A stretch of 64,000 nt of DNA from positions 7,736,793 through 7,800,792 of the forward strand of contig NC_083570.1 of the NCBI RefSeq assembly GCF_027579695.1, given 5' to 3'. Of this stretch, positions 18,010 through 56,122 are shown piece by piece. The DNA comes from Neoarius graeffei. Its lineage: Eukaryota > Chordata > Actinopteri > Siluriformes > Ariidae. Within the stretch, counting starts at the first letter, position 1. Each line of letters begins with the position of its first letter. The notes under the pieces were generated by a model, which made no database searches, was not told the DNA's origin, and was given only the letters and a program-made list of their open reading frames with translations. The position numbers were made by a program, and so were the translations under genes.

Positions 18010-21000
18010 CATCTACATCTAAAGCGCTAATGGTTAATGAACTCATTACTGATCAGGAGTTTAATGTACTGTGTTTAACAGAAACATGGATTAAGCCAAA
18101 TGAATATATAGCATTAAATGAAGCGAGTCCTCCTGGATACAGTTATATACACCAGCCTCGTCTAACTGGCAGAGGAGGAGGCGTCGCGGTTATTTATACA
18201 ATTATCTAGGTGTAACACACAAACCTGGTTATAAATTTAATACATTTGAAGTTCTTCATACTCATATAATGTATGTAGCCTCGAAAAATAAGTCTACCCA
18301 GTTAATTCCATTGCTTATTATTTACAGGCCCCCGGGGCCATATTTTGAGTTTCTTTCTGAATTTGCAGATTTTATCTCAGATTTGGTTATTTCCTTAGAC
18401 AAAGCTTTAATTGTCGGAGATTTTAATATTCACTTCGATAACCCAGAAGACCCTTTAAAAACAGCGTTTGTGTCCATCTTAGATTCAGTCGGGATTAAGC
18501 AGAATGTCATAGGACCGACCCATAATGGTGGTCACACCCTTGATCTAATACTAACATTCAGATTAAACGTAGACAATATAGTCATACTTCCACAGTCTGA
18601 AGTTATCTCAGATCATTGTCTCATCTCATTCAAACTATGTCTGAGTAATAATATATGCACCTCACCACGCTACTGTATTAAACGTACTTTCACGTCAACT
18701 ACTGCACAGAGCTTTATAAATGATCTCCCAGAGCTGTCAACTTTGATTGGGTCACTGTCAGCCCCTGCAGAACTCGATCAGGCAACTGAATGCTTAGAGT
18801 CAACATTCCGCCATACTTTAGATAATGTAGCTCCTCTAAAAAGGAAAATGGTCAGAGACAAAAAATTAGCACCCTGGTATAATGATGACACTCGCACATT
18901 AAAACAGACCACTCGAAAATTGGAACGTAAATGGCATCAAACAAAATTGGTAGTGTTCAAATTAGCTTGGAAGGAGAGCTTCCTGAAGTATAGAAAAGCT
19001 CTTAGTGCTGCGAGATCAACATATTTCTCCTCCCAAATAGAAGACAACAAAAATAATCCTAGATTCCTATTTAATACTGTAGCAAAATTAACCAGGAATA
19101 AGTCCACTATCAACACATGCACACCTGCAGTATGTAGTAGCAACGACTTCATGAATTTTTTTAATGACAAAATTGAGAATATCCGACAAAAAATTCAAAC
19201 TACTAATTTAAGGTTAGACAATGAAAGTGACCTTGTAGTTAACAATATAACTGTATCAGATCATCAGTTAGAATGTTTTACTCCCCTAAAAGAAACTGAA
19301 TTACTTTCATTAATCTCTACATCAAAAGCCTCAACTTGCGTACTAGATCCCTTACCGACACATCTATTCAAACAGATAATGCCTGGAGTAATTGAACCGC
19401 TTCTAAAAATAATAAATTCTTCTCTTATGATTGGCTATGTACCCAAATCCTTTAAACTAGCAGTTATCAAACCCCTGATTAAAAAACCTGACCTTGATCC
19501 CTGTCAGCTGTCCAATTATCGGCCAATATCAAACCTCCCCTTTATCTCCAAGATCCTTGAAAAAGCTGTGGCACAGCAGTTATGCTCATATTTACAAAGG
19601 AATAACATCCATGAAATGTATCAGTCAGGATTTAGACCTCATCATAGCACAGAGACAGCACTGGTTAAAGTAGTAAACGACCTACTGTTGGCGTCTGATC
19701 AGGGCTGTGTCTCGCTACTTGTGTTGCTTGACCTTAGTGCAGCATTTGATACCATTGATCATTCCATTCTTCTGGATAGACTAGAAAATGTTGTGGGAGT
19801 TAAGGGAATGGCCCTCTCCTGGCTCAGGTCTTATCTAACTGATCGTTATCAGTATGTTGATATAAATGGTGATATTTCTAGACGTACCAAGGTAAAGTTT
19901 GGTGTTCCACAAGGTTCTGTCTTGGGTCCACTGCTTTTTTCTCTATATATGTTACCTCTGGGCGATATTATTCGTAAACATTGTATTAGTTTCCACTGTT
20001 ATGCTGATGACACACAGTTGTATGTCTCTGCAAAACCTGATGAGAGACACCAGCTTAATAAAATTGAGGAATGTGTTAAGGATATTAGACACTGGATGCT
20101 TATAAATTTCCTTCTGCTTAACTCTGACAAGACTGAAGTACTTGTGCTAGGACCACATACAGCTAGAAGTAAGTTTTCTGATTACACAGTGACTCTGGAT
20201 GGCCTTTCTGTTTCTTCACGTGCAGCAGTAAAAGACCTCGGAGTGATTATTGACCCCAGTCTTTCATTCGAAACTCACATTGATAACATCACCCGGATAG
20301 CTTTCTTTCATCTCAGAAATATTGCAAAGATAAGAAATTTAATGTCATTGCATGATGCAGAAAAACTAGTCCATGCTTTCGTTACCTCCAGGTTGGATTA
20401 TTGTAATGCCTTACTGTCTGGATGTTCCAATAAGTGCATAAACAAGCTCCAGTTAGTTCAAAATGCCGCAGCAAGAGTCCTTACTAGAACTAGAAAATAT
20501 GACCACATCACGCCTGTCTTATCCACACTGCATTGGCTCCCAATCAAATTTCGTATTGATTATAAAATACTACTATTGACCTTTAAAGCACTAAATGGTC
20601 TCGCACCACAGTACCTGAGTGAACTTCTGCTCCTCTATGACCCGCCACGCCTACTTAGATCAAAAGGTGCAGGCTATCTGCTGGTACCTCGTATAGTGAA
20701 GGCTACATCAGGGGGCAGAGCCTTTTCTTACAAAGCCCCACTGTTATGGAACAGCCTTCCAAGTAATGTTCGGGAATCAGACACAGTCTCAGCATTTAAG
20801 TCTAGGCTGAAAACATATCTGTTTAGTCAAGCCTTTTGTTAATGGTGTTTATGAGGTAAAGGAGTAGATCTGGAGGGTCCTCAGACATAGAGTGTTTTGG
20901 TAAACTGGGATGTATGGATGCTGTCAGTCCCCACTCGCTTGCTCACTCGAGTTTGTTGACGGTGTAGTGGCTGGCTGCTTTATGTCCCGGGGCTCCCTCA

Positions 21001-23570: not shown

Positions 23571-23683
23571 TATTCAGAATCTGAATAAGACTTGTGAATT
23601 CCTATTCACACTACATATTTCTTGTTCAGATTCTGAATCTGAATAAGACTTGTGAATTCCTATTCACACTACATATATTTATT
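23571..23683. repeat. Tandem duplication of about 60 bp in the DIRS leader
   Basis: 'cagaatctgaataagacttg' followed by 'tgaattcctattcacactac' occurs twice, just ahead of the gag-like start codon. Also present in the copy at 63433-63541, so it pre-dates the copying. Confidence 0.85.
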
Positions 23684-23703
23684 ACTTTTTCGCGGCAATT
23701 AAT

Positions 23704-24627
23704 ATGTGTGACCCAGGAACCTCAACTGAAACCACATCCTCAGAAGATTTGAAAACGTCTATATCTGCCATGTTTTCAGAGATGAAAACTGATCTGAAAC
23801 AACATGTAGAACAGTTTGTTGCGACTGCCATCGAAAACTACGCTTATAATGAAGATTTCTGGAGTGATGAAGAGGAGGAATCTGACGGGAATATCTCTAA
23901 CGCAGATCTTGCTGGTGACTTAGAAAAATTTCTTTCTCAAGATAAAGATCAACAGAAAGAGAAAAATGCTGCCGCAAGCGAGTTCCAGGACCTCGCCCAG
24001 GAGTTTGCCACAAGTGAGAAAACAAGCCCACCAATCGATGACGATCTGGTGAAGATCATAGATGGTCTCATCAATGACAAACTACCCAAAGCAAAACTCG
24101 ACGAGCTTACTGACAAATATGCCAGACCGGAAAATTGTAAGCTCTTACTGGCTCCTAAGACGAACAGGACTGTGTGGACTCAGCTTAAAGACAACACCAA
24201 GAAAGCAGATACTGGAATGCAGAGATGTCAATGGATGTTTTTAACTGCAGCTTATGCTATCCTTGATGCCTCGAAAACAGCATCCAGAGAAATGAAAACC
24301 AAACTAGTCCATGCTTTGGTGCTTATCCTGTCTGGCAATAGAGAAATCAATCTGAAGAGAAGAGAGCTGCTAAAGACAGATCTCAATGCCCAGTACAATG
24401 CTTTATGCAATGCCTCAACTCCTATTACAACAGAGTTGTTTGGTGATGATGTGGGGAAAGAAATTGATGCAGTGACCAAAGCAAACAAGTTGGGGGAAAA
24501 AAGCTTATACCCCCTAGGAAGAGTCGTGGTTCACGCTTTCAGCCCTATGGCCAGGGAAGGTCTTCAGATCGCTTTGGCTCAGCGAGGGGTCGTTATGGCG
24601 GCCGAGGATTCAACAGGCCTTTTTTAG
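23704..24627 (+). CDS. DIRS gag-like frame (fossil element part)
   Basis: 307 codons starting MCDPGTSTETTSSEDL. Acidic and glutamine/lysine-rich N-terminal third, then a helical middle part (KLVHALVLILSGNREINLKR). DIRS elements carry such an ORF1 whose protein is thought to bind the element RNA. No zinc knuckle is seen. Assignment rests on position ahead of a DIRS RT. Confidence 0.7.
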   Translation: MCDPGTSTETTSSEDLKTSISAMFSEMKTDLKQHVEQFVATAIENYAYNEDFWSDEEEESDGNISNADLAGDLEKFLSQDKDQQKEKNAAASEFQDLAQEFATSEKTSPPIDDDLVKIIDGLINDKLPKAKLDELTDKYARPENCKLLLAPKTNRTVWTQLKDNTKKADTGMQRCQWMFLTAAYAILDASKTASREMKTKLVHALVLILSGNREINLKRRELLKTDLNAQYNALCNASTPITTELFGDDVGKEIDAVTKANKLGEKSLYPLGRVVVHAFSPMAREGLQIALAQRGVVMAAEDSTGLF

Positions 24628-24727
24628 GGGAAAGATACGCCGACCGCAGGAGGACGTCGGCGAAGTCCGCATCCTACAACAAGAGCACTCAGAATTAACT
24701 CCTCCACAACAGGTCAGCTATGATAAC

Positions 24728-26093
24728 TTGATAAATATGCTACTCGGGTCACAACAGCCTTTTATAGCTGGGCAAATAAGCCGTTATTTGAAGGAATGGA
24801 GAAAGATCACTATGGATCCTTACATTTTGCAATGTGTAAGCAACTGTCCCATTGAATTTGACTATGATCCCCCCTGTATCCAAAATGTCACTAACTATGA
24901 GCATAAATTCTCCCCAGCTCAACAAGAGGCCATTGGCAATGAAATGGAGACATTTTTGAACAAGCATATTATTGAGCCTGCAGTCCCAGAACCAGAAGAA
25001 GTTATTTCACCCATTTTTGTTACCCCCAAAAAAGAACCAGGAACGTTCAGGGTTATATTCAACCTTCAATCTCTGAATGACACGGTTACCTACCACAAGT
25101 TTAAAATGGATACTGTTGAATCAGCTATCAAATTAATGAAACAAGGATGTTACATGTCATCTATAGATTTACGCGATGCTTATTATTCAGTCCCCATCGA
25201 GCCCCAGTTTAGGAATTACCTCAAATTTGTCTGGAGGGGTAGATTGTTCCAATATACGGCACTGCCCATGGGTTTATCCAGCAGCCCTCGAATATTTTAC
25301 CAAGATTTTGAAACCGGTATTTGCCACCTTGCGATCCCAGTTTGGACACTCGTGTCTGGGATATATCGATGATTCATTTTGTACTGCAGATACACTTGCT
25401 CTATGTCAAGAAGCCACCTTGCATGCGGCCCAGTTATTCACTAAGCTTGGTTTTGTTGTACATCCCACCAAGTCTGTATTTCATCCCTGTCAGTCTTTGG
25501 AGTTTCTGGGATTTGTTTTAGATTCTGCCCATATGAGAGTCACTATTCCAGAGAGAAAAGTATCCAAAATTGTGAGTTTGTGCCAGAATTTTCTACAGGA
25601 CAAACTTTTCACCATTCGCGAGGTAGCTTCGCTTATTGGAACTCTTGTCTCCAGATTCCCTGGGGTTGAGTTGGGACCGCTACATTATAGATCCTTAGAG
25701 CGAGATAAAGACATTGCCCTACGTAGAGCTTTGGGCAGTTTTGATGACTGCATGTCCTTATCGAAAGAAAGCCGAGTAGAGTTGAACTGGTGGATATGCT
25801 CCATCCCTCACAGTTCTCGAATCATTGACCATGGGGTGCCGGAGGTTGTCCTTAACACTGATGCTTCTGGAAGGGGATGGGGTGCTACTTCGGGCAGTTG
25901 TTCTACTCAGGGTTTGTGGTCGCCTGAGAAGGCTTCTTACCATATCAATGTTTTAGAATTATTGGCTGTCAAATTGGGCTTAAGAGCTCTTCTTGATCAA
26001 ACTCGAAATCAACACATCCATATCACTTCAGACAATACCACGACAGTGACCTACATTAATACCATGGGAGGTTGTAGGGCTCCAGCTTGTTGA
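24728..26093 (+). pseudogene. DIRS reverse transcriptase and RNase H region (fossil)
   Basis: RT motifs FVTPKKEPGTFRVIFNLQSL, YMSSIDLRDAYYSVPI, ALPMGLSSSPRIF and YIDDSF, then RNase H with VVLNTDASGRGWGA and ITSDNTTTVTYINTMGG. These are DIRS-like RT/RH signatures. The region is spread over more than one frame; treated as a fossil. Confidence 0.85.
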
Positions 26094-26202
26094 CACCATT
26101 GCAAAAGATATTTGGTCATGGGCGGTAGAACGTGAGAACTGGCTGTCCGCAGCGCATGTAGCTTGAATTCGAAATACCACTGCAGATCATTTATCACGCC
26201 AG

Positions 26203-26994
26203 TTGAACCCTGAGGTGGAATGGGAACTGAGTCCTAATATATTCAGGAAGCTTACGCACTGTTTTGGTGTTCCTGATATTGACTTGTTTGCAAGTAGACT
26301 GAACCACAAGGTTAAGTCCTACGTGTCATGGAAGCCTGACCCGCACTCAACATGTATAGATGCTTTCTCTGTAAATTGGGGAGAATTTGCTAATGCCTAT
26401 GCTTTTTCCCCCGTTTTGTCTAATTGGCAGGTGCCTTCAGAAGGTCACCCTAGAGCAAGCCACCTTGATCATTGTTGTCCCAATGTGGAAAACGCAAGTA
26501 TGGTTCACCAATTTACTAAGGCTGTTGATCGATCGTCCTCGAGTTGTCCGAGTGACCAAGGGAATCCTCTCAAACCCACTGCACGGCAAGGTCCATCCAC
26601 TGAGTCCCAAACTCCATCTTCTGGTATGCAGAATATCAGGAAGGAGTTCTCTAAGCACAACATACCTTCAGAAATTATCGAGGTCCTCCTATGTGCCTGG
26701 CGAGACGGAACACAGAAGCAATATAACGTCTACCTGCACAAATGGACCCAGTTTTGTTTACAAAGGAAAGTGGATTCCATGCAGCCCACTGTGAATGATG
26801 TGCTCGAGTTTCTCCACGATTGGTACAAGAAGGGCTTAGTCTATTCCACTATGAACACAGCGCATTCAGCTTTATCTAATTATTTAATGGGCACACCCTT
26901 ATCTGGAACTCGTTATACTGTGGCCAAATGTGATTTAACCGCATACACTTCATGGACAGAAAGAAAGGACAAAATGGGAAAAGAAAATAAATGA
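26203..26994 (+). pseudogene. DIRS tyrosine recombinase, N-terminal part (fossil)
   Basis: A segment typical of DIRS, PDIDLFASRLNHKVKSYVSW, precedes a SAM-like recombinase N-terminal domain (WTQFCLQRKVDSMQPTVNDV, FLHDWYKKG, MNTAHSALSNYL). The catalytic half is not in the window. Fossil. Confidence 0.75.
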
Positions 26995-28674: not shown

Positions 28675-30663
28675 ATGGCTGAGGCCAGTATTTCAGTAGA
28701 TCAGCTTTCTGTGGACCAGTTCATGTGTCCAGTGTGTCTGGATCTCCTGAAGGATCCGGTGGCTATCCCCTGTGGTCACAGTTTCTGTAAGGCGTGTATT
28801 AATGGCTTCTGGGATCAGAAGGGCGTCTACAGCTGTCCTCAGTGCAGAGATACTTTCACTACAAGGCCTGTTCTACGCAGAAACAACATGCTGGCTGAAG
28901 TGGTGGAGAAACTGAAGAAGACTGAAGTCCAAGATGTGGAGTGTGATTTCTGCACCGGGAGAAAAAACAAAGCCGTCAAGTCCTGTCTGATGTGTTTGGC
29001 TTCATTTTGTGAAACTCATCTGAAACCTCATCTTGAAGTTCCTGCTTTGAAAAAACACACATTAATTGAAGCCTCAGCAAAACTCCAAGAGAAGATCTGC
29101 TCTGAACATAACAAGCTGATTGAGATCTACTGTCGTACTGATCAAACCTGCATCTGTTATTTGTGCATGTTGGAGAAACATAAAGACCATGACGCTGTTT
29201 CACTTGCAACAGAAAGAGATGAGAAACAGGTGAGAACTAGAAATCTTTCCAGAATTAAATCATCTTAATTATAGTTTCCCATCTAGAAACAGGTGCTTTA
29301 GTCAGAGATATGATTTGAACTTTAATTTCAATGTGTGTCTCAATCAGAAGGATTCTGTAAAAGCTGATTAAAATTGTCTGTGTTCTGGTGAACAGAGTGT
29401 TAAATTTATCTTCAGTGATGGTGGTAATCTGGTTAGGGGTGGGTTTCCTGATAACGTTGCCCTTTAGACCTAAAGCGAGAGTTGAGAGACTCTCTTAAGG
29501 AACGACCGTTGTCTCTGTACATGCTTTTCCCGAACTCACTCGTAAGAAGGAGTCTAAAGAGAAACAGGACGAAGAGCGTCTTTGCAGTTCACGTCCCCGA
29601 TATAGGCATTAGTAGCTGCTAAAAGCAATCATATTAGACATAACTAACAGTGTCCAAGTTAACTAACTATGTGTAAACATTAGACGTGGATAAGACTATG
29701 GCAGCTTGGCGGGCAAATCCATAGAAAGTCACTTGACTAATCAGACTGCATAGAATAAAATGTTTATATCCCTCAATATGCTTCTGCAGGTGGGATGGCG
29801 AGTTTTTGTAGGCTGTGATGTGCTCCGTTTTAGGTAAACAAAGCAAACATTTAAAATGAAATGACTCTTTATTCCTCTCAGAAAAGTGAACCATGGGTTC
29901 TAGCTATCGAACCGTGGGTGTGTGCATTCCCCAGAAGAACCGCCTCCTTCCATTCTGCCATCAACTGATCGTGTTAAATAATGCTGCGGAGAAATCATTG
30001 ATCTTGATTTTATCCAGTCTATGGACGTGACGTGACCCTAGTGATTACTGATAGACTGTCTCAGTGTCACCTGCGGAAAAACCAATCACGTTTTAGAAAA
30101 GAAAAGAAAAAAACATCCACTTTCAAAGCTGCTTCATAGTAACGAGTAACGAGGACCTTGATAGAAATGTAGTGGAGTAAAAAGTACGATATTTGTCTTT
30201 CAAATGGAGTGAAGTTAAAGTCATAAGTTTCCAAAAAAAAATACTCAAAGTACAGATACTCAAAAAGTGTACTTAAGTACAGAACTCAAGTAAATGTACT
30301 TCGTTACTGTCCACCTCTGATAATTAACTCGATGTACTTGTAATGTAGAAGAAAACTAATTGAACAAAACCAGCAGATTCAACCCCAGTTTCCCCCGCTG
30401 ACTGTGAGAGTCCCTCAGAGCCGCATGCGCATTCTGTGGATTCGGCAGCGAGCGAGTCGCTCTTTGTTTTGAACGAGTGCTCCGGGTCTCTCGTAAATTC
30501 CGAGCAAACTAAAGGACGACTTGTGCTACGATGTTGTTCGGGAAAACCACGTTAGCTTGATGATGGATCTTAAGAGATCATTTAAAACTCTCTTGGCCTT
30601 AAGAGGCTTTCGGGAAACCCAGCCCAGATCAGTTAGTGAACATTTTTTTCTCTCTCTCTCTCA

Positions 30664-30714
<51 letters not shown>

Positions 30715-31022
30715 AACATAACCTTCAGAGCGAAACATGAATGTACTTTGAACTGACATTAATATGGAACCAGTTCGCTCGTACTGTATAAAAAGCTGAA
30801 TGTATTTTATTTGTCCTCAGAGTGAGTTAAAGGAGGAGCAGATGAAATCCCAGCAGAGAATCCAGGAGAAGCAGAAGAAGGTGCAGGAGCTGAAACAGGC
30901 TGTGAACACTATAAAGGTGAGCAGTGAGCAGAGACAGAGCTGCTCCTAGAAACACACACAACATGGACAACGAGTCATTTACAGTCCCAGTAAGAGAGGG
31001 AATGATAGATGAGCTTTAAATC

Positions 31023-31079
<57 letters not shown>

Positions 31080-33718
31080 TGAACAGCTCAGTGCACAGAC
31101 AGCAGTGGAGGACAGTGAGAGGATCTTTACTGAGCTGATCAGCTCCATGGAGAAAAAGCGCTGGGAGGTGACGGAGCTGATCAGAGATCAGGAGAAGGCT
31201 GAACTGAGTCGAGCTGAACGACTCCTGGAGCAACTGGAGCAGGAGATTGCTGATCTTCAGAGGAGAGTCACTGAGCTGGAGCAGCTTTCACACACACACG
31301 ATCACATCCATTTCCTCCAGGTAACACTCACTGTCTGATCTACAGAGCCAGCTGTTCCTCACACACTCTCTAAAACACCTCTCATTAAGGGAACAATAAA
31401 TGTCCCTGTCTGACATCACAAGTGGGTTTTACATTTCATTTGCTTTCTGTAGGTTTTAGCTTCTGGACGTCAGTCTCCTACATTTCCAAGACCATCATTT
31501 CACACATCCAGCATCACTGTCCATCAACATCTCTCATTTGATGGAGTGAGGAATTCTCTCTCAGATCTGAAAAAGAGACTCGAGGAATTCTGTGAGGAGG
31601 AATTCAACAAAATCCCTCCACATGGTAAGAGGAGCTGTTCCTGCTGGAGAAACACAGTGATGTGTTATTTCTTAGCGATGCTCCTGCATTCTTTTCTGCA
31701 GACACTTTTTTCACCCGACACTTTGAACTAAAACCCTGATTTAAAATGAATAAACTGACTGGATCACTTTAAACTCTTTCCATCTTTTACACAAACTCAT
31801 GTTTCCATTTTTCTCTCCACAGCTGCAGCAGTTCAGATCATTTCAGGACCAGAACCACAGAGCAGAGAAGAGTTTCTGCAATGTACATCTAACACACACA
31901 CACACACACACACACTTCTAGGCCTGTCACAATAACAAATTTTGTTGGACGATATATTGTCTCAGAAATTATTGCGATAAACGATATTATTCTTGACATC
32001 TTTTCAAGACAATTTTATGCCACTAGTAAAATAATAATGATCATGCAATACACCCTTTCATAGAACAGTAAACTTTTTAATTAAGTCAACTTATTCAATT
32101 CAACAGTGGAATGTAAACAATAAATATAAATAAATAAGCTAAAGAAATAAAACAACAATCAAACAAAACCACTCACAACAAAAACAATAAATAAAATACA
32201 ATTTATGGCTCTTAAAAATTGCACTGAAGTGAATATTAACTTGGCACAGGGTAATAAAAAGACATTCTTTTCTTCACAGGCAACATTCTGCCAATCCAGT
32301 TTCTCAAAGATTAGTACCCAGATCAACAAAAAGTGCAAAGTAACAACGTATTGCCAGCTGTCATTTGGATAAAAGTCACAACAATTAGAACGAGATAACA
32401 TGTAGGCAAGGGCGTAGGTTTGGTATTAACATTGGTGGGGACAAAAACCCAATGCCAACCCCCAGTGGTGCCAACTTCAGGTCAACATTAGAGGGTCACA
32501 ATATTTTGCTCCGTTGTGTTCCACCAAAAGAGTCTCCATCATCTCTCCAAAGGCCAGACTTTTAACATTTGAAGTTCAGAACTGTAGTAATTCATGAATA
32601 ATAATAATAATAATAATAATATGAAATCCATTTAATTAACTGCAAATCTTGCATGTGATGATGAACTCATTCTACCAATTTGCAAAGGTGTTTTCCCAGT
32701 GAATAGCGCACTGACTGTCGGGAGGGTGTATGTTCCTTTCCCTCATGAATGGAAATAAAACCCATCCGGAGCCTTAAACACTGTGTTCCATGAGGCTGGC
32801 AGGGGGAGTCGCTCTCTTCTGTGGGATCTTTAACTAGTTTTAGAATGCTAGTTTAAGCTGATATGTGATTGATCTAACGGTAAAACAGCACGAGGGCTCG
32901 AGAACTTTGACAGGTTACAATTTTACTTGGCAACAGAATGTATCTGAATTCTGATTGGTTGTTGTATCTGGATTCTGATTGGTTGTTGTATCTGGATTCT
33001 GATTGGTTGTTGTTATATTATTGCCCTTTTGTTGTGTTCTTGAGCCCAGAGTGGGGGGAGGGGGGAGTGACAGGGTTCTACAGAGAAAAGTTTTCACTGC
33101 AACCGAACTGCTGTTTTCGTGACCACGCCCCCAGCGCGGTTATTCATGTTCACATTGTTCAGTTTGTTTTTCTCTTTTATTTTAGATTTCTGTTATCTGA
33201 CTCTGGATCCCAACACGGCACATCGTCGCCTCATTCTGTCTGAGAAGAACAGAGCGGTGAGATGCAGTGAGAGAGAGCAGCGTTACTCTGATCATCCAGA
33301 GAGATTTGATTACTGGTGGCAGGTGTTGTGTAAGGAGAGTGTGTGTGGACGCTGTTACTGGGAGGTGGAGTGGAGCAGTGATGGTGATGTGTTCATATCA
33401 GTCTCATATAAAGACATCAGCAGGACAGGACGGCATGATGAGTGTCGGTTTGGAGGCAACAATCAGTCCTGGAGACTGTGGTGTTCTTCTTCTTCTTCTC
33501 TCTCTTTCTGTCACAACAGCATTGAGACTGATCTCAGAGTTCCATCAGCCTCCAGAATAGGAGTGTATGTGGATCACAGTGCAGGAACTCTGTCCTTCTA
33601 CAGCGTCTCTGACACGATGAAGCTCCTCCACAGAGTCCACACCACATTCACTCAGACTCTATATGCTGGGTTTGGGTTCGACTTGCATTCTACAGTGAGA
33701 TTGTGTGATCCAGAATAA
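28675..33718 (+). CDS. TRIM E3 ubiquitin ligase, RING/B-box/coiled coil/PRY-SPRY (finTRIM/TRIM16-like)
   Basis: Six coding exons: 28675-29229, 30821-30916, 31087-31320, 31453-31624, 31823-31882, 33186-33718, all with GT-AG borders and consistent phases, total 1650 bases = 549 residues plus stop. Exon 1: RING finger (CPVCLDLLKDPVAIPCGHSF, then CKACI and SCPQC), then B-box residues (VECDFCTGRKNKAVKSCLMC, CSEHNKL, CYLCMLEKHKDHD). Exons 2-3 (32 and 78 residues): coiled coil (ELKEEQMKSQQRIQEKQKKV). Exon 6: PRY/SPRY with FCYLTLDPNTAH, CYWEVEWSS and GVYVDHSAGTLSFYS. The 96/234-bp exons are the finTRIM/TRIM16-like plan. RING zinc ligands are present, so ligase activity is expected. The family is greatly expanded in fish and linked to antiviral defence. 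A 5' UTR exon probably joins at the acceptor before 28602. All frames are open; it looks functional. Confidence 0.92.
29436..30625. mobile_element. DNA transposon-like insertion in TRIM intron 1
   Basis: The left end reads ggggtgggtttcctga and the right end complements as gggctgggtttcccga, so the ends are inverted repeats. The interior contains the tail of a hAT-like repeat, 'ttcgttactgtccacctctg' near 30300-30318, of the 'cagaggtggacagtaacgaa' type common in fish. No coding region. Superfamily uncertain; no clear target duplication found. Confidence 0.55.
30666..30711. repeat. (CA)23 microsatellite in TRIM intron 1
   Basis: Uninterrupted CA run about 110 bp upstream of exon 2. Together with the (TG)n in intron 2 it brackets exon 2 with complementary RNA. 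Confidence 0.97.
31024..31078. repeat. (TG)27 microsatellite at the 3' end of TRIM intron 2
   Basis: The run ends only 8 bases before the exon 3 acceptor (ctgaacag). It occupies the place of the polypyrimidine tract. Confidence 0.97.
31883..33150. other. TRIM intron 5 with repeat insertions
   Basis: Starts with an (AC)n tract (to about 31915). Then comes a hAT-like left end taggcctgtcacaataacaa (from 31917), whose matching right end is seen only in the second TRIM copy near 51250. A second repeat start is 'gggcgtaggtttggtattaa' near 32410. A small (AAT)n lies at about 32598-32622. No coding exon is visible. Confidence 0.6.
32938..33012. repeat. Tandem repeat, about three 27-bp units, in TRIM intron 5
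   Basis: The unit 'gtatctggattctgattggt' plus 'tgtt' is repeated about three times, with the CCAAT-complement word attggt in each. Confidence 0.9.
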
Positions 33719-44942: not shown

Positions 44943-45234
44943 TGTAAGAGACCCTACGTGTGGGTGGAGCACAGAGGACGGCAGAACAGAGATCAGGTTT
45001 TATAAAGGGCTTTATTGCCGCACTTTTCAGTATAACAATGACAGACACACAACCGGCGTCTGGTTCAGGGCTGAGCTCCTTCTGCTCTCGCTCTCCCTCC
45101 TGATATAGGGCGCAGTCACTGGGAAGACACACAAACAGGTTAATTGCTCTCAGGTGGCGTGATTCTGCCACTTACCTTCCCTGACTCCGCCCTCCTGTCA
45201 CAGACCGGCGCTTGACCACGCCCCCGCTGCCACA
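44943..45234 (-). repeat. 3' LTR of the Gmr1-like element
   Basis: 292 bp, same as the other LTR by eye. Carries 'gggctttattgccgcacttt', whose complement holds an AATAAA-type signal (caataaag). Confidence 0.93.
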
Positions 45235-48200
45235 TACCCCCACCGCCCGACTCAGGCCGGGCGGCCGTCCGGCCTGCAGCCGACTCCCCCCCCCCTTGAC
45301 GGGAGAGGAAGTCCGCCACGACCATCTGCGCCCCCGGCCTGTGGACCACCTTGAAATTAAAGGGTTGGAGCGCCAGATACCAACGGGTGATCCGCGCGTT
45401 GGCATCTTTCATGCGGTGGAGCCACTGGAGGGGCGCGTGGTCCGAACAGAGGGTGAAAGGGCGCCCCAGCAGGTAGTACCGGAGGGCAAGAACCGCCCAC
45501 TTGATGGCCAGACACTCTTTCTCTATGGTGCTGTAGCGCCCCTCACGCACCGACAGCTTCCTGCTGATATACAGGACAGGGCGGTCCTCCCCCTCCACCT
45601 CCTGGGACAAAACCGCCCCCAGCCCTCTGTCCGACGCATCGGTCTGCAACATAAAAGGGAGAGAAAAGTCAGGGGAGTGTAGAAGTGGCCCCCCACACAG
45701 TGCAGCCTTTACCTCTGAGAAAGCCCGCTGGCACTGCTCCGTCCACTGGACCGGATCTGGTGCCCCCTTTTTAGTGAGATCAGTCAGCGGGCTGGTGACG
45801 TCCGAATAATTAGGTATAAACCTGCGATAATAGCCAGCCAGCCCCAGGAACTGTCTCACCCCCTTTTTGGTCTTGGGCCTCGGGCAGGCCGCAATTGCTG
45901 CCGTCTTATTAATTTGGGGACGCACCTGCCCGTTGCCCAAGTGGAAGCCCAGATACCGTACTTCCACCCGCCCAATCGCACACTTCTTTGGGTTGGCTGT
46001 GAGCCCCGCTCGCCTCAGCGACCTAAGGACGGCCCTCAGATGTTCGAGGTGCCGCTGCCAGTCATTGCTATAGATGATTATGTCATCTAAATATGCTGCC
46101 GCATATGTGGCGTGAGGGCGGAGGACTCTGTCCATCAGCCGCTGAAACGTTGCGGGGGCCCCAAACAGCCCAAACGGAAGGGTGACGAATTGGTGTAAAC
46201 CAAACGGTGTGGAAAAGGCCGTTTTTTCTCGGGATAGTGGAGTCAAGGGGATCTGCCAATATCCCTTCGTCAAATCCAGTGTCGAATAAAAGCGAGCAGT
46301 GCCGAGTCGATCGAGCAACTCATCAATACGAGGCATTGGGTACGCGTCGAATTTAGACACCGCGTTGACTTTTCTATAGTCCACACAGAACCGGACCGAC
46401 CCGTCGGCCTTGGGTACCAAGACCACCGGGCTGCTCCAGTCACTGTAGGACTCCTCGACGATGCCCATTTCGAGCATGGTCTGAAGTTCTTCCCGAACCA
46501 CCTTTTTTTTGTGTTCAGGTAGCCTGTAAGGGCGGCTACGCACTACCACCCCCGGGGGCGTCTCTATGTGGTGCTCTATGAGGTTAGTGCGACCGGGCAG
46601 GGGCGAGAACACATCCGAAAACTCGGTCTGCAACTGGGCGACCTCCGTGAGTTGGGTCGGGGAGAGGTGGTCTCCACAGGGGACCGGAGAGGTACGTGAT
46701 GCCAATGTCCCTTTTTGAACCTCCGGCCCCAGCTCCGCCTTCTCTGGAACTACCGACACCAACGCCACGGGGACCTCCTCGTTCCAGAGTTTAAGCAGGT
46801 TGAGGTGGTAAATCTGTAGCGCCCCACCCCTGTCCGTTCGCCTCACCTCATAGTCGACGTCCCCGACTCGCCGTGTGACCTCAAAGGGTCCTTGCCACTT
46901 GGCGATCAATTTGGAGCTCGACGTGGGCAACAGTACGAGTACCTTATCTCCCGGAGTGAACTCTCTAAGGCGCGTACCCTTGTTGTACAGGCGGGCTTGC
47001 CGTTCCTGGGCCTGCCGCAAATTCTCCTGAGTTAGGTGGGTGAGCGTGTGGAGTTTTGCGCGCAGGTCCATAACGTACTGAATTTCGTTCTTACTTTGTG
47101 AAGGTCCCTCCTCCCAATTTTCCCGCAGCACGTCCAGGATGCCGCGCGGCTTACGCCCATATAATAATTCAAACGGGGAGAACCCCGTGGAGGCTTGGGG
47201 GACCTCTCGCACTGAGAACAGCAAGGGTTCGAGCCACTTATCCCAGTTACGTGCGTCCTCACTTACGAATTTTTTAATAATATTTTTGAGGGTGCGGTTG
47301 AATCGTTCCACTAAACCGTCCGTTTGTGGGTGATACACGCTGGTGCGGATCGGCTTAATCCCCAATAACCCATACAGTTCGCGCAGTGTTCGTGACATAA
47401 ACGTAGTGCCTTGATCAGTCAGAATCTCTTTCGGGATTCCAACTCGGGAGATGACGCGGAAGAGTGCCTCTGCAATACTGCGTGCTGAGATATTGCGCAG
47501 AGGCACTGCTTCCGGGTATCGCGTTGCATAGTCCACCAGAACTAATATAAAGCGGTACCCTCGTGTTGACCGATCTAATGGCCCGACGAGATCCATCCCA
47601 ATTCTCTCAAACGGGGTCTCGATTAACGGTAGAGGGCGCAAAGGCGCTTTTGGAATGGCCGCTGGGTTTACTAACTGGCATTCGCGGCATGCCGTACACC
47701 ACCTACGGACATCGCCGCGAATCCCCGGCCAATAGAAACGGGCCATTATTCGGGCTAGTGTCTTATCCTGCCCTAAGTGTCCAGCCATGGGATTAAAGTG
47801 AGCCGCCTGGAATACCAATTCCCGGCGGCTCTTCGGAATTAAAAGCTGCGTGACTCGCTCTTTCGTTTGAGTGTCCTGCGTCACTCGGTATAATCTATCC
47901 TTCATAATCGCGAAGTAGGGGAAGGACGGGGTGGCGTTCGGCTGGAGCGTTTGACCATCGATTACTCTCACTTGGTCAAACGCATGCCGCAGAGTCTCGT
48001 CTCGCGACTGCTCTAATGGGAAATCCGCGAGGGATTCCCCAATAGAGAGAGGAGGAGCCGGCGGCTCCTCACTCTGACGCGGAGATGACGTAGACGGCTC
48101 TGTGACAGCTGCTCCCGCCAAAGCGACACCGGGACCTCCCCCTGTCAAATGGCAGGACCCACTCTCGACTAGGCGTGTCATTAAACCCCGAAATCCCGGC

Positions 48201-49573
48201 CAATCAGTCCCCAAAATTAGAGAGTGGGTAAGGCGAGGATTAACCGCCGCCTTTACTATGAATTTTTCCCCTCTGAAAATAATGTGGACCGACACCAAAG
48301 GGTAGCTGTGAACATCCCCGTGCACACATAACACCTTCACCCCTTGTGCTCCCCCCAATGCCTCGTTTTGAACCAGGCTTTGGCGAATTGAGGTCTGATT
48401 ACAACCAGAATCCACCAACGCCTGATATGTAGCCCCTTGGATACTCACCGGTATGCGATACGCTCCGGCCCGATCGAGGGCGGCCTCTGGCGCGTCGGGG
48501 ATCCGAACCACCGCGCCCACTTCCATTGCCGTGCACTGCTGTTGAAGGTGGCCCGGTTCCCCGCAGCGCCAGCAAACCGGCCCGGGCTTTCCCTCTGCAC
48601 CGGTGATCTGGGGTTCACTCACCTGAGGTGGGGGAGAGACAGACACAGAAGGGAGAAACGGGAGGGCACCGCGGGTGCGGCGGGCCGGCTGGGGGGGTGC
48701 CGGCCCCCGCCTCCGCGGAGGGGGAATGGGGCGAGGACAGGACACAGGAGGAGGGGGAGAGAGAGAGAGAGAAGAGGAGAGAAGAGATGCCATCTGCTGT
48801 CCTGCCGCCGGGACAGCCGCCAGATGATCCTCCGCCAGCTCGACTGCCTGATCCAGCGACGCCGGGCGGTGGCACTGGACCCACTCCGCGGTTCCGGCTG
48901 GTAAGCGGGCGATGAACTGTTCCAGTACCACCTGGTCGACGATTCCCTCGGCGTCGCGATCGTTGGCCCTCAGCCACCGCCAGCAGGCGTCCCGGAGCTG
49001 CTGGCCGAACGCGAACGGCCGGCCGACTTCCTCCAGTCGCAGCGCGCGGAAGCGCTGGCGCTGTTGCTCCGGTGTGCGCCCCACGCGCTGGAGGACGGCC
49101 CGGCGGAGGTCCGCGAAGGCCAGCCGGCGGTCGGCGGGGAGCTGTAGCGCGGCCAGCTGTGCCTCTCCCGTGAGCAGGGGGAGGAGGCGCGCCGCGCGCT
49201 GCTCCATCGGCCACCCCGAGGCTTCGGCGACCTGTTCAAACAACGTGATGAACGCCTCGGGGTCGTCCTGCGGGCCCATCTTGGTGACAATGAGGGGAGA
49301 CGGGCCCGCGGCCGGAGCGCTGGTGGACCCCGCCGACGCGAGGAGATGCCGGAACGCCTCGCGATCTTCCTGCTGGGCCAGCACCAGGGCTTCGAAGCGC
49401 TGCTCCTGCTCCTTTCGGAGCGTAACGAGTGCCTGGTGCTGGCTTTGCTGAGCCGTGGCGAGGGCGTGGACCAGATCGGCGAACGGGGAGGATTCCATGG
49501 GGCTGCTGGTTTGGTGCTCCACTGTCCCGGGTTTCGGCACCACTGTAAGAGACCCTACGTGTGGGTGGAGCAC
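45140..49573 (-). CDS. Gmr1-like gag-pol polyprotein (order gag-PR-IN-RT-RNase H)
   Basis: 1477 codons open; the likely start is the second methionine (MESSPFADLVHAL, about 49498), because the first lies within the 5' LTR. The frame runs about 30 codons into the 3' LTR. Domains in order: a gag core resembling the SCAN fold (about 100-250), proline-rich linker, zinc knuckle CWRCGEPGHLQQQC (about 334), protease LVDSGCNQTS (about 387), integrase zinc region (AGHLGQDKTL, CTACREC, about 595-640) and DDE core (MDLVGPLDRST, VYHPQTDGLVERFNR), then RT (VRFCVDYRKVNA, YLDDIIIYS) and RNase H (LQTDASDRGLGAVLS). Integrase ahead of RT is reversed relative to ordinary Ty3/gypsy and defines the Gmr1 group, first described from cod. 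Vertebrate SCAN domains are thought to come from this gag. Confidence 0.92.
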   Translation of the reverse strand: MLHPHVGSLTVVPKPGTVEHQTSSPMESSPFADLVHALATAQQSQHQALVTLRKEQEQRFEALVLAQQEDREAFRHLLASAGSTSAPAAGPSPLIVTKMGPQDDPEAFITLFEQVAEASGWPMEQRAARLLPLLTGEAQLAALQLPADRRLAFADLRRAVLQRVGRTPEQQRQRFRALRLEEVGRPFAFGQQLRDACWRWLRANDRDAEGIVDQVVLEQFIARLPAGTAEWVQCHRPASLDQAVELAEDHLAAVPAAGQQMASLLSSSLSLSPPPPVSCPRPIPPPRRRGPAPPQPARRTRGALPFLPSVSVSPPPQVSEPQITGAEGKPGPVCWRCGEPGHLQQQCTAMEVGAVVRIPDAPEAALDRAGAYRIPVSIQGATYQALVDSGCNQTSIRQSLVQNEALGGAQGVKVLCVHGDVHSYPLVSVHIIFRGEKFIVKAAVNPRLTHSLILGTDWPGFRGLMTRLVESGSCHLTGGGPGVALAGAAVTEPSTSSPRQSEEPPAPPLSIGESLADFPLEQSRDETLRHAFDQVRVIDGQTLQPNATPSFPYFAIMKDRLYRVTQDTQTKERVTQLLIPKSRRELVFQAAHFNPMAGHLGQDKTLARIMARFYWPGIRGDVRRWCTACRECQLVNPAAIPKAPLRPLPLIETPFERIGMDLVGPLDRSTRGYRFILVLVDYATRYPEAVPLRNISARSIAEALFRVISRVGIPKEILTDQGTTFMSRTLRELYGLLGIKPIRTSVYHPQTDGLVERFNRTLKNIIKKFVSEDARNWDKWLEPLLFSVREVPQASTGFSPFELLYGRKPRGILDVLRENWEEGPSQSKNEIQYVMDLRAKLHTLTHLTQENLRQAQERQARLYNKGTRLREFTPGDKVLVLLPTSSSKLIAKWQGPFEVTRRVGDVDYEVRRTDRGGALQIYHLNLLKLWNEEVPVALVSVVPEKAELGPEVQKGTLASRTSPVPCGDHLSPTQLTEVAQLQTEFSDVFSPLPGRTNLIEHHIETPPGVVVRSRPYRLPEHKKKVVREELQTMLEMGIVEESYSDWSSPVVLVPKADGSVRFCVDYRKVNAVSKFDAYPMPRIDELLDRLGTARFYSTLDLTKGYWQIPLTPLSREKTAFSTPFGLHQFVTLPFGLFGAPATFQRLMDRVLRPHATYAAAYLDDIIIYSNDWQRHLEHLRAVLRSLRRAGLTANPKKCAIGRVEVRYLGFHLGNGQVRPQINKTAAIAACPRPKTKKGVRQFLGLAGYYRRFIPNYSDVTSPLTDLTKKGAPDPVQWTEQCQRAFSEVKAALCGGPLLHSPDFSLPFMLQTDASDRGLGAVLSQEVEGEDRPVLYISRKLSVREGRYSTIEKECLAIKWAVLALRYYLLGRPFTLCSDHAPLQWLHRMKDANARITRWYLALQPFNFKVVHRPGAQMVVADFLSRQGGGESAAGRTAARPESGGGGMWQRGRGQAPVCDRRAESGKVSGRITPPESN

Positions 49574-49835
49574 AGAGGACGGCAGAACAGAGATCAGGTT
49601 TTATAAAGGGCTTTATTGCCGCACTTTTCAGTATAACAATGACAGACACACAACCGGCGTCTGGTTCAGGGCTGAGCTCCTTCTGCTCTCGCTCTCCCTC
49701 CTGATATAGGGCGCAGTCACTGGGAAGACACACAAACAGGTTAATTGCTCTCAGGTGGCGTGATTCTGCCACTTACCTTCCCTGACTCCGCCCTCCTGTC
49801 ACAGACCGGCGCTTGACCACGCCCCCGCTGCCACA
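49544..49835 (-). repeat. 5' LTR of the Gmr1-like element
   Basis: 292 bp, starts TGTGGCAGCGGGGGC on the coding strand and ends TCTCTTACA. Promoter region of the element; matches the 3' LTR. Confidence 0.93.
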
Positions 49836-50113: not shown

Positions 50114-51336
50114 TGAGAGTGTGTGTGTGGGGGGGGGGGGGAGTGACAGGGTTCTACAGAGAAAAGATTTTGGCCTCCAGCTTTCAAATGAACCGCCTCG
50201 AAAACCAATCAGCTTAGCGGATGTGTGGACTCGGTGTGTGACACTTTCAAAAGAGAGGCGGAGTCACCAAACATTTCTGATCCAGAAGGCGGAAGCTGTT
50301 CTGCTTATTACGTGAAAATGTTTGATTTGATTAAAAGGTGTCTGGGCCTCGAACAATGTCCACATCACCATCGGGTTGTTGTTGTTTACATGTGTCATGT
50401 TACCCAAACTCGGTCAGGGCTCTGCAGGTCTTAACTGAAGCGCTTCAAATTAAGGGTTAGCGGGCTGCTAAAGTTTGAAGGCACTTCACAAGCAAGACTC
50501 GGTGCAATATTAACCAACATTAGCACAATCTGATATGATTTAATAATATCTTTGTGACCTTAATGAACACCAGTTGTTGTATCAAGTCGGATTGTTATTT
50601 ACATGCCACACAAACTTAGAAAACAGTCATATTCATATGTTGTCGTTTTTACACACTGAATCCGAACTGTTGTGAACTGATTAATTTTCCGAGCTAATCT
50701 AACGCTGCATACCTCAAGGACAGTTTGCTAGCTAGCAGCCGCTCACTGCATCGCAACCGCACTTCCTAATTGACATGGTAGCCGAACAGGCATGTTGTTT
50801 CCGTGACCACGCCCCCAGAGTGAATATTCATGAGTGAATTTTGCATGGTTCCGCCCAGTGGAAACCTACAGGAACCCTTTGTGTACCGCGCACGGAGCGG
50901 ATTTTTATTTTCTCCAATCAGAAATATTGGTAGGGACCCGTCCATCCCGTCCAGACCCAATTCTACACCTCTGGTCTGTACAGCGGAGCACTGTGTTGTT
51001 GTCTTTTCCCCATTCAGTGGATCCCCTGGCTGGATAACTGTTGCATGCTGGGAAGCCCCGCCTCTGACAGAGAGCCGCGCGAGATGACAGAAAACAGTGC
51101 AGTGTTTTATTCAGTCATTGGGTCAAACTAATACTCTGGAGACTTCCCTATGGAGATGGACAGCACGGGAATGCCAAAATCACGGTGGAAAAATTACCGA
51201 GTTCATTTTCATTTACCGTACGATAAGTCGGTATATCAAATATCACGACAGGCCTACACACTTCACATCAATATATTTTTGTGAAATAAACCCAACATGT
51301 TCACATTGTTCAGTTTGTTTTTCTCTTTTATTTTAG
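50114..51336 (+). other. Intron-like sequence of the second TRIM copy, with insertions
   Basis: From 50130 the sequence 'ggagtgacagggttctacag' matches TRIM intron 5 at 33057, and 'cgtgaccacgcccccag' (50801-50818) matches 33118-33135. DNA at 50165-50790 and 50820-51295 is extra relative to that intron. It ends with a hAT-like right terminus 'cacgacaggccta' near 51250. Then 'tgttcacattgttcagtttg' (51297) again matches the bases before TRIM exon 6. A run of G (50130-50143) lies at the start. Confidence 0.7.
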
Positions 51337-52887
51337 ATTTCTGTTATCTGACTCTGGATCCCAACACGGCACATCGTCTCCTCATTCTGTCTGAGAAGAA
51401 CAGAGCGGTGAGAGGCAGTGAGAGAGAGCAGCGTTACTCTGATCATCCAGAGAGATTTGATTCCTGGTGGCAGGTGTTGTGTAAGGAGAGCAGTGGTGTA
51501 GTCTACGTGATACGCAGGTATACGCCGTATGCCCACTGGAAAAGCTCAGCGATTTCCGTATACTCACTGAAGAGCTCAGTGATTTGCGTATGCGCATACG
51601 CCTACCGAAAAATATATTCGTTATTTGAACTGGCCAAACCAACGTCAACATTGTCAGATGAATGTTCCACAGTTCCATTCCTAGATGCCTGTGTCCACCA
51701 AACGCGCTTTAGCGCTACAAGCGCCTCTTCAATTCAAATCCTATGGGCTTCATTAAGAAGACGCTGACAGAGCCGACTCAGCACTCAGGGCGTTGCGAGT
51801 TGATCCAAGAGCAGAGAATTGACCCTTCCGGGAGCTCCGCCCCCCATAGCAACTGTTGCTATGTCAGTCAAGCCAGCCGTCTGCACTTGTCGTGTATGTA
51901 GCCAGTCAAATGACGTCAGAATAGAGGGGAAAGCATCATAGACGTCGCCAGACCCATTTTAGGGTAGCTCCAGCCACCCTATCTTATGGCAAAGCCACCC
52001 TATATTTTTTGCCCTTTTTTAAATTATTTATATTTTTATTTTTTTTCCCAAAAAAACCAAAGGCAGTAAAGCACTGAACATGAGCCATCAAGAACGCAAG
52101 TTAATCCAAACAACAGTTTCTGCTTGCTTATTTATTGTTTAACCCTTTAATGCGCAACATGGGTCACAAGTGACCCGGCTGCGTTTAATTTGCTTTTTAT
52201 CTCTGCAATAAATTATTTTCATGACCCCACACTCCATGAATTCCTCAATTAACTTGTTTTTGTTCATTTCAAAACTTTTTTAAATTTATATCTCTAAACG
52301 ATTTTAAATAAAAATACTTTTTTTGTCACTACCCCTCTAATGCGCAACATGGGTCACAAGTGACCCGCATTCATTTTCTATGGAGTTTTGTTGAAGGTTT
52401 AGTGTTTCTTAGCTAGTTTTTTTTTTTAATTAATTTTTCATTTAATTTACCAAGTTTCCATCACTTATTCAGTTTTTTTTCAAACATTAATTATTCTTTT
52501 CATTAATTTATGGTTACCCATTGAATTATAACACTTTTTATGTAGCTATATTATATTTGCACACATGGGTCACAAATGACCCGCATTAATTTCCTATGTA
52601 AAAGAATCAGAATTTATTTGCAGTAATAGAATAAGAATCAGAACAAGAATAAGAATCAGAATTTATTTGCAGTAATATTTGAAATTAGTTTATTTCATCA
52701 TTTAATATCAAAATTTATCATTACATATTCAGCTTTTAAAAAACAGCAATAATTATGTTCATTCCACTATGGCTACTCCATGAATTGGAATACATTTTGT
52801 GAAGCAGTACAGTGGTTGAACACATGGGTCAGAAATTACCTGTGTTGGCTAAGTGATTGTGATTAAGATAAAAAATATTATGCGAAC

Positions 52888-55632: not shown

Positions 55633-55643
55633 CACACACACAC

Positions 55644-55676
<33 letters not shown>

Positions 55677-55680: not shown

Positions 55681-56122
55681 TATAAATTTTTTTCCCGGGG
55701 GGGCGTTGCATGTCAAGCACTGAGTATACACACTGCAAAAAAGTAGACTACACCACTGAAGGAGAGTGTGTGTGGACGCTGTTACTGGGAGGTGGAGTGG
55801 AGCCGTGCTGGTGTGTCCATCTACTAGGAAGTCTGTTTAGTCCTGGGGTGCCATGGTAACGGCCCGCGGGCCGGATACGGCCCGATTGGTCATCACATCC
55901 GGCCCGGTGGTTCATGAGACTTTTTTTTTTTTAAATAATAAATTAAAAATCGAATGTTTTTTGTTTTTTTTTTCGTAATGATTTTAAATCTAATGTTTCA
56001 ATTTGATTCCGTTTTCGTGTAATCCATCGGTTCGTTTTTAGCTGCTCTCTGCTTGCTGCAGCACGCGCAGGCGCAGTGACCCGGATTTAATGTAGAGTGG
56101 CGAGTTGTTGCTCGTTCACAAG

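Follow-up and report, generated by a model that had tools for sequence, protein, structure and literature searches.

The window analyzed here, a 64,000-nucleotide stretch of the Neoarius graeffei genome (NC_083570.1:7736793-7800792, + strand), contains a complete finTRIM gene of six exons with an uninterrupted frame of 549 codons plus stop. Its exons, first intron and dinucleotide tracts are listed below by window position.

28675..29229, + strand: exon 1 with 555 coding nt, encoding RING and B-box, from the open frame, the donor CAG/GTGAGA and the Pfam RING and B-box matches
29230..30820, + strand: intron 1, 1591 nt, from the exon limits
30666..30711, + strand: perfect (CA)23 in intron 1, 109 nt upstream of exon 2, from a sequence scan
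30821..30916, + strand: exon 2 (96 bp, in phase 0 at either end), encoding residues 186-217, where the coiled coil starts
30952..30960, + strand: short AC run ACACACACA in intron 2, 4-5 units, candidate same-intron partner of the TG tract
31024..31078, + strand: perfect (TG)27 (31024-31077) plus one T (31078) in intron 2, in the acceptor part of exon 3
31087..31320, + strand: exon 3 (234 bp), encoding coiled-coil residues 218-295, skippable in frame
31453..31624, + strand: exon 4, 172 bp, varying among copies
31823..31882, + strand: exon 5, 60 bp, donor AAT/GTACAT
31892..31915, + strand: (AC)12 in intron 5, nine nt after the donor, a minor rival partner of the TG tract
33186..33718, + strand: exon 6, PRY/SPRY (B30.2), 533 bp, from the open frame and Pfam

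The 549-aa product, encoded in one open frame, has Pfam matches above cut-off to RING, zf-B_box (residues 138-177), TRIM_CC (residues 199-344), PRY and SPRY, and its coiled-coil region aligns by sequence to TRIM25 (entry 4cfg, E 1.3e-8). A search for relatives of the exon 1 protein, confined to that exon, gave nine pattern matches in bacterial and archaeal genome records, none of them a relative. The exon sizes (555/96/234/172/60/533) fit the organization of zebrafish ftr genes, given as 555-594/96/234/154/60/about 545 coding bp in PMC2657112, with 172 instead of 154 bp for exon 4. Since 96 bp is the ftr exon 2 size, exon 2 is normal for the family and its length is by itself no sign of regulated splicing.

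Several other elements share the window. Within intron 1, inverted ends of 23 nt (78% complementary, 1158 nt apart) at 29429-30632 suggest a DNA transposon at about these positions, which would fill most of the intron and end ~33 nt before the CA tract. Extra pieces of the B30.2 exon, apparently fragments, lie at 51296-51490 and 55759-55813 (98.5% and 96.4% identical to exon 6). A 1486-aa open frame on the - strand (45140-49600) has, by eye, the order gag, protease, integrase, reverse transcriptase and RNase H; with integrase ahead of reverse transcriptase, it is reminiscent of Gypsy elements of the Gmr1 kind. The long frames at 18122-20842 and 23656-26994, both upstream of the TRIM gene, are what we take, by eye, to be a LINE (endonuclease and reverse transcriptase) and a DIRS-like or related element.

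The (CA)23 and (TG)27 tracts are 312 nt apart, a distance made up of 109 nt of intron 1, exon 2 and 107 nt of intron 2. The CA tract starts 1436 nt past the intron 1 donor, and ACACACACA lies 35 nt after the donor start in the 170-nt intron 2. Counting its final T, the TG tract stops 8 nt short of exon 3 and thus belongs to the acceptor region of that exon. CA or TG runs of at least 10 units number four in the window, three of them within about 1.25 kb in this gene. The probability of such 3/4 clustering is 0.0044 for four uniformly placed tracts, that of a complementary pair within 400 nt anywhere is 0.037, and that of a complementary pair on either side of one of the gene's internal exons is 0.00014, all three values being post hoc and ignoring the enrichment of such repeats in teleost introns. 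Elsewhere in the window, positions 55633-55676 hold a hairpin-forming compound microsatellite, (CA)6(AT)8(TG)9.

The preliminary description had placed complementary tracts about 310 nt apart on either side of exon 2, had given this exon as 96 bp, a multiple of three, and had held that its skipping would preserve the frame; each of these points agrees with what we find, the exon being in phase 0 at both ends and the exon-2-less frame running for 517 aa plus stop. It had also spoken of a shortening of the coiled coil. Because the two chains of a TRIM coiled coil run antiparallel, a loss of 32 residues from one end would put their pairing out of register, and such a loss at the start of the coil would probably disrupt it and not just shorten it. 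A working exon-2-less TRIM protein is possible, but not likely. Excerpts of PMC2657112 describe splice and allelic variants of zebrafish finTRIM transcripts with and without B30.2, and one trout clone without the coiled coil is on record; exon 2 skipping is not mentioned in the available part of that paper's finTRIM account.

The 2.34-Gb genome was searched for copies with window positions 30600-31100 as the query. Of 385 candidates, 40 were scored. The listing has 40 places that cover all or most of the query with E below 1e-170, headed by the window copy, and 53 further short matches, mostly to the repeats. All 40 scored copies lie on NC_083570.1 between 4.75 and 10.99 Mb, and besides the window they comprise 20 paralogs taken as stretches of about 8.5 kb and 19 taken as about 0.7-0.8 kb (one stretch, L021, contains 200 N, which lie beyond the portion used for folding). 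This sample could lack copies without tracts, because the query included the tracts and only 40 of the 385 candidates were scored. Both tracts are present in 40/40 scored copies, at 40 different (CA,TG) length pairs. Perfect CA runs range from 5 to 33 units (median 16) and perfect TG runs from 3 to 33 units (median 21), with fewer than 6 TG units in 6/40 copies; L027, L042, L043, L044 and L047 are examples of copies with short TG tracts. The earlier expectation that the tracts change length easily is therefore upheld in that they are very variable between paralogs, although the comparison is one of paralogs and not of individuals.

The sequence around the tracts is far more constant. Exon 2 has 96 nt, no stop and AG/GT sites in every scored copy, and its acceptor (20 nt), its donor and the intron 2 AC run, found as AAACACACACAACA, are each identical in 40/40. 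Exon 2 matches the window copy exactly in 35/39 paralogs; for the final 100 nt of intron 1 the figure is 25/39, as it is for the opening 108 nt of intron 2. Exon 3 is identical in 27 of the 37 paralogs of equal length. Over all 40 copies it measures 234 nt without a stop in 37, the exceptions being L015 with 225 nt, L046 with 236 nt and L047 with one stop, and its acceptor AG is kept in all 40. Among the 20 gene-length paralogs, mechanical joining of exons gave an open frame of 548 residues plus stop for L010, and for L026 a frame with no stop in 561 codons whose stop codon was not recovered. The other 18 have at least one exon that does not align end to end in the stretch taken, which may reflect true loss, an insertion or too short a stretch. 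Not all copies need be functional, since only L010 was recovered complete and open.

The lengths of the two tracts vary independently. CA and TG lengths do not co-vary among the scored copies, whether counted as perfect units (Pearson 0.18, 40 copies) or as imperfect lengths (Spearman 0.22, p 0.17, n=40), nor do they in a Mantel comparison of 20 copies (r -0.07), and in the same 20 copies differences in tract length do not track flank distance (r -0.07 and -0.05). This argues against a maintained, length-matched helix.

A first diversity profile over 21 copies, with pi of 0.000-0.004 vs 0.05-0.16 around exons 4-5, had pointed to gene conversion centred on the tracts; an effect of that size did not stand, L028 having been misaligned in the flank (270 of 450 differences). 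Over the 20 copies without L028, pi is 0.0094 at the end of intron 1 (30713-30820), 0.0096 in the rest of intron 3 and 0.0095 in intron 4, and lower in exon 2 (0), in intron 2 (0.0010), in the stretch that runs from the end of intron 2 through exon 3 (0.0032) and in the 60 nt that open intron 3 (0.0033). The 3- to 10-fold lower pi over 30821-31380 may be due to sampling bias from a query lying inside the block, to local gene conversion or to constraint. Exon 4 is the most variable non-tract part compared in these 20 copies, with 27 segregating sites in 172 nt and a pi of 0.048 vs 0.0095 in intron 4. Its 57 codons include 14 variable ones with an amino-acid change and three that vary only synonymously, which suggests that exon 4, in the linker before B30.2, is under diversifying selection if the copies are functional.

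According to the preliminary description, the (CA)23 and (UG)27 tracts pair, loop out exon 2 and cause in-frame skipping or back-splicing to a circle. That the tracts can pair is supported by prediction. A fold of 721 nt has 44.1 of the 46 CA nucleotides paired with the TG tract, the intron 2 AC run retaining 8.6 TG pairs. If the CA tract is kept unpaired, at a cost of 48.7 kcal/mol in ensemble energy, the AC run has 10.5 pairs. The 436-nt region from CA through exon 2 to TG folds at -178 kcal/mol, compared with a shuffle mean of -124.2 (sd 6.0; z -9.0), and none of 100 shuffles was as good. Expected CA:TG pairs per copy range from 0 to 48.8, with at least 10 in 33/40 scored copies. Flanking duplexes are known to loop out exons in other systems, according to excerpts of PMC7404189; such exons, subject to skipping or circular RNA formation, likewise have complementary sequences in both flanking introns, but the finTRIM flanks are simple repeats and their effect on splicing is putative.

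The predicted partner of the TG tract depends on how far apart paired bases may lie. In a 1401-nt fold with no span limit, the CA:TG helix has 44.0 pairs and the AC run 8.0. Two further candidate partners proved negligible in this unrestricted fold: the intron 5 (AC)12, ruled minor with 1.5 expected pairs, and a CA run in exon 3 with 0. With a 400-nt span limit, CA:TG pairing stays at 42.8 and the AC run falls to 0.1, the exon 3 CA run pairing instead (10.5 pairs, or 11.0 when intron 1 is left out). With a 200-nt limit no CA:TG pairing is predicted and the TG tract uses only its intron 2 AC partner, which speaks against looping of exon 2. Proteins binding CA and UG would also compete with CA:TG pairing. 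When intron 2 is folded alone, 10.7 of the 12 nt of the AC region (30951-30962) pair with TG; this fold is no better than expected from its composition (z -0.91, with 46/200 shuffles at least as good). By a hand tally of the modelled states, 22 of the 40 copies have both pairings, 10 have the CA pairing only, one is intermediate and seven pair mainly with the AC run.

Varying the tract lengths in the model gave a threshold. With TG27 fixed, CA pairing is 0 at CA4, 38% at CA5 and 97% at CA6, and stays at 89-98% from there to CA30; with CA23 fixed, pairing starts at 8 TG units, there being none at 6. CA:TG pairing is thus predicted to behave as a threshold and not as a graded switch, so that changes of a few units around 23 and 27 alter nothing in the model. 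The idea of a polymorphic length switch is not borne out.

We consider that the tracts are probably ordinary hypermutable microsatellites of teleost introns within a multiplied finTRIM array, which splicing tolerates, exons 2 and 3 being normally included. While the gene anatomy, the tracts, their lengths in 40 copies and the constancy of the exon 2 splice sites and AC run are direct observations, the pairings and their threshold are predictions, and the normal inclusion of the exons, the tolerance and the protein roles below are inferred. The UG tract forms the 3' end of intron 2, between a putative branch point and the exon 3 AG, and would pair with any CA partner not otherwise engaged. Pairing with the AC run of its own intron would bridge intron 2, pairing with the CA tract of intron 1 would loop exon 2, and both may occur; hnRNP L on CA and TDP-43 on UG may take part. 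Splicing of exons 2 and 3 would most likely tolerate this pairing. Since CA/UG pairing is described as common in fish introns, complementary tracts around a teleost exon should be frequent. Against so ordinary a reading stands a fold far beyond its shuffles, and it is not evident that as many as 46 base pairs in a row, formed across an exon, would be neutral. Pairing of this kind is already described in fish. Among the matches listed in our literature search there was no publication on CA and TG repeats flanking one exon, which is no proof of absence in print.

Any effect of tract length should act first on the acceptor of exon 3, because UG lies between the putative branch point and the AG, pyrimidine content is low and the distance to the last upstream AG is variable. 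At -23 to -4, the exon 3 acceptor has 50% pyrimidine, the lowest of the five acceptors (the others having 65, 75, 85 and 90%). The last upstream AG lies 71 nt away in the window copy and 25-85 nt away (median 59) over the 40 copies, least where TG units are few, the five shortest distances being 25-31 nt. Skipping of exon 3 would remove 78 residues and leave one open frame of 471 aa plus stop. These features are what would be expected if, as at CFTR exon 9, a long UG tract weakened the acceptor, so that a longer tract gave more in-frame skipping of exon 3, through binding of a TDP-43-like protein, a branch point moved away or structure. Buratti (2001 and 2004) reportedly connected TDP-43 and TG repeats with CFTR exon 9 skipping, and the variable dinucleotide repeat in CFTR is said, after Hefferon (2004), to form RNA structures that alter splicing. 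As in the CFTR (TG)m(T)n element, the finTRIM TG tract varies in length and immediately precedes an in-frame exon's acceptor; it differs in that TG27 is longer than the common CFTR alleles, no T run follows it and a CA tract lies upstream. We nevertheless regard a CFTR-like effect as unlikely, given that the acceptor AG is kept in every scored copy and that UG tracts before acceptors are common in teleosts according to excerpts of PMC6093180 and PMC12962679.

Intron 2 could also belong to the (AC)m-(GU)n class, in which a donor-side AC run pairs with an acceptor-side UG tract and so brings the splice sites together with no need of U2AF2; the CA tract of intron 1 would then compete for UG. Excerpts of the literature put CA/UG pairing inside introns at about 10% of zebrafish introns (PMC6093180) and at thousands of introns in fish (PMC12962679), with UG near the acceptor paired to AC near the donor (PMC6093180, PMC9024468, PMC9198270, PMC12962679), and attribute the teleost class to Lin et al. 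2016 (in PMC6093180, PMC9024468, PMC9198270). What the finTRIM intron has in common with these is UG immediately ahead of the 3' splice site, a complementary CA/AC sequence and its place in a teleost gene. The AC pairing predicted for intron 2 alone, its recovery once the CA tract is held open, the modelled states of the copies and the unchanged AC run all agree with bridging. On the other side, the long CA partner sits in the preceding intron, across exon 2, while the same-intron partner has merely 4-5 units, intron 2 alone folds like its shuffles, and AC pairing nearly vanishes under the 400-nt limit; the unchanged AC run moreover says little, because neighboring sequence is nearly invariant anyway. 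Bridging of intron 2 is thus, in our judgment, decidedly unlikely. A quadruplex of the pUG type is conceivable by length, as the tract has 27 units and (GU)11.5 is given as the shortest that folds (excerpts of PMC12962679), but the complementary CA tract should compete with it, as that source notes for fish.

A further reading, which we hold to be improbable, is that the finTRIM array forms a paralog-encoded splicing series, with at least 40 exon 2-intron 2-exon 3 blocks that differ chiefly in the two tract lengths and take one of three predicted RNA states. In the first, UG pairs with both partners; in the second, it pairs with the CA tract of intron 1 alone; in the third, the AC run of intron 2 is its main partner. 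If these states were spliced differently, repeat slippage alone would let every paralog produce full-length and coiled-coil-shortened TRIM in proportions of its own, cheaply adding to the immune diversity that comes from the variable exon 4 and the B30.2 exon.

Finally, looping-out of exon 2 with skipping or back-splicing is highly improbable despite the extensive predicted duplex, given invariant exon 2 splice sites and tract lengths that do not co-vary; with the TG tract placed at the acceptor of exon 3, the sequences compared do not support the view that the tracts naturally target exon 2.

The array amounts to a natural experiment, with at least 40 near-identical blocks in one genome that differ in CA (5-33) and TG (3-33) units. 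RNA from a single animal could tell three effects apart: exon 2 looped out, intron 2 bridged, or exon 3 affected as in CFTR.

The nucleotides directly before exon 3 (31078-31086) also differ between copies: 31 of the 40 carry TCCTAACAG, with a branch-point-like CTAAC, and the window copy alone carries TCTGAACAG.
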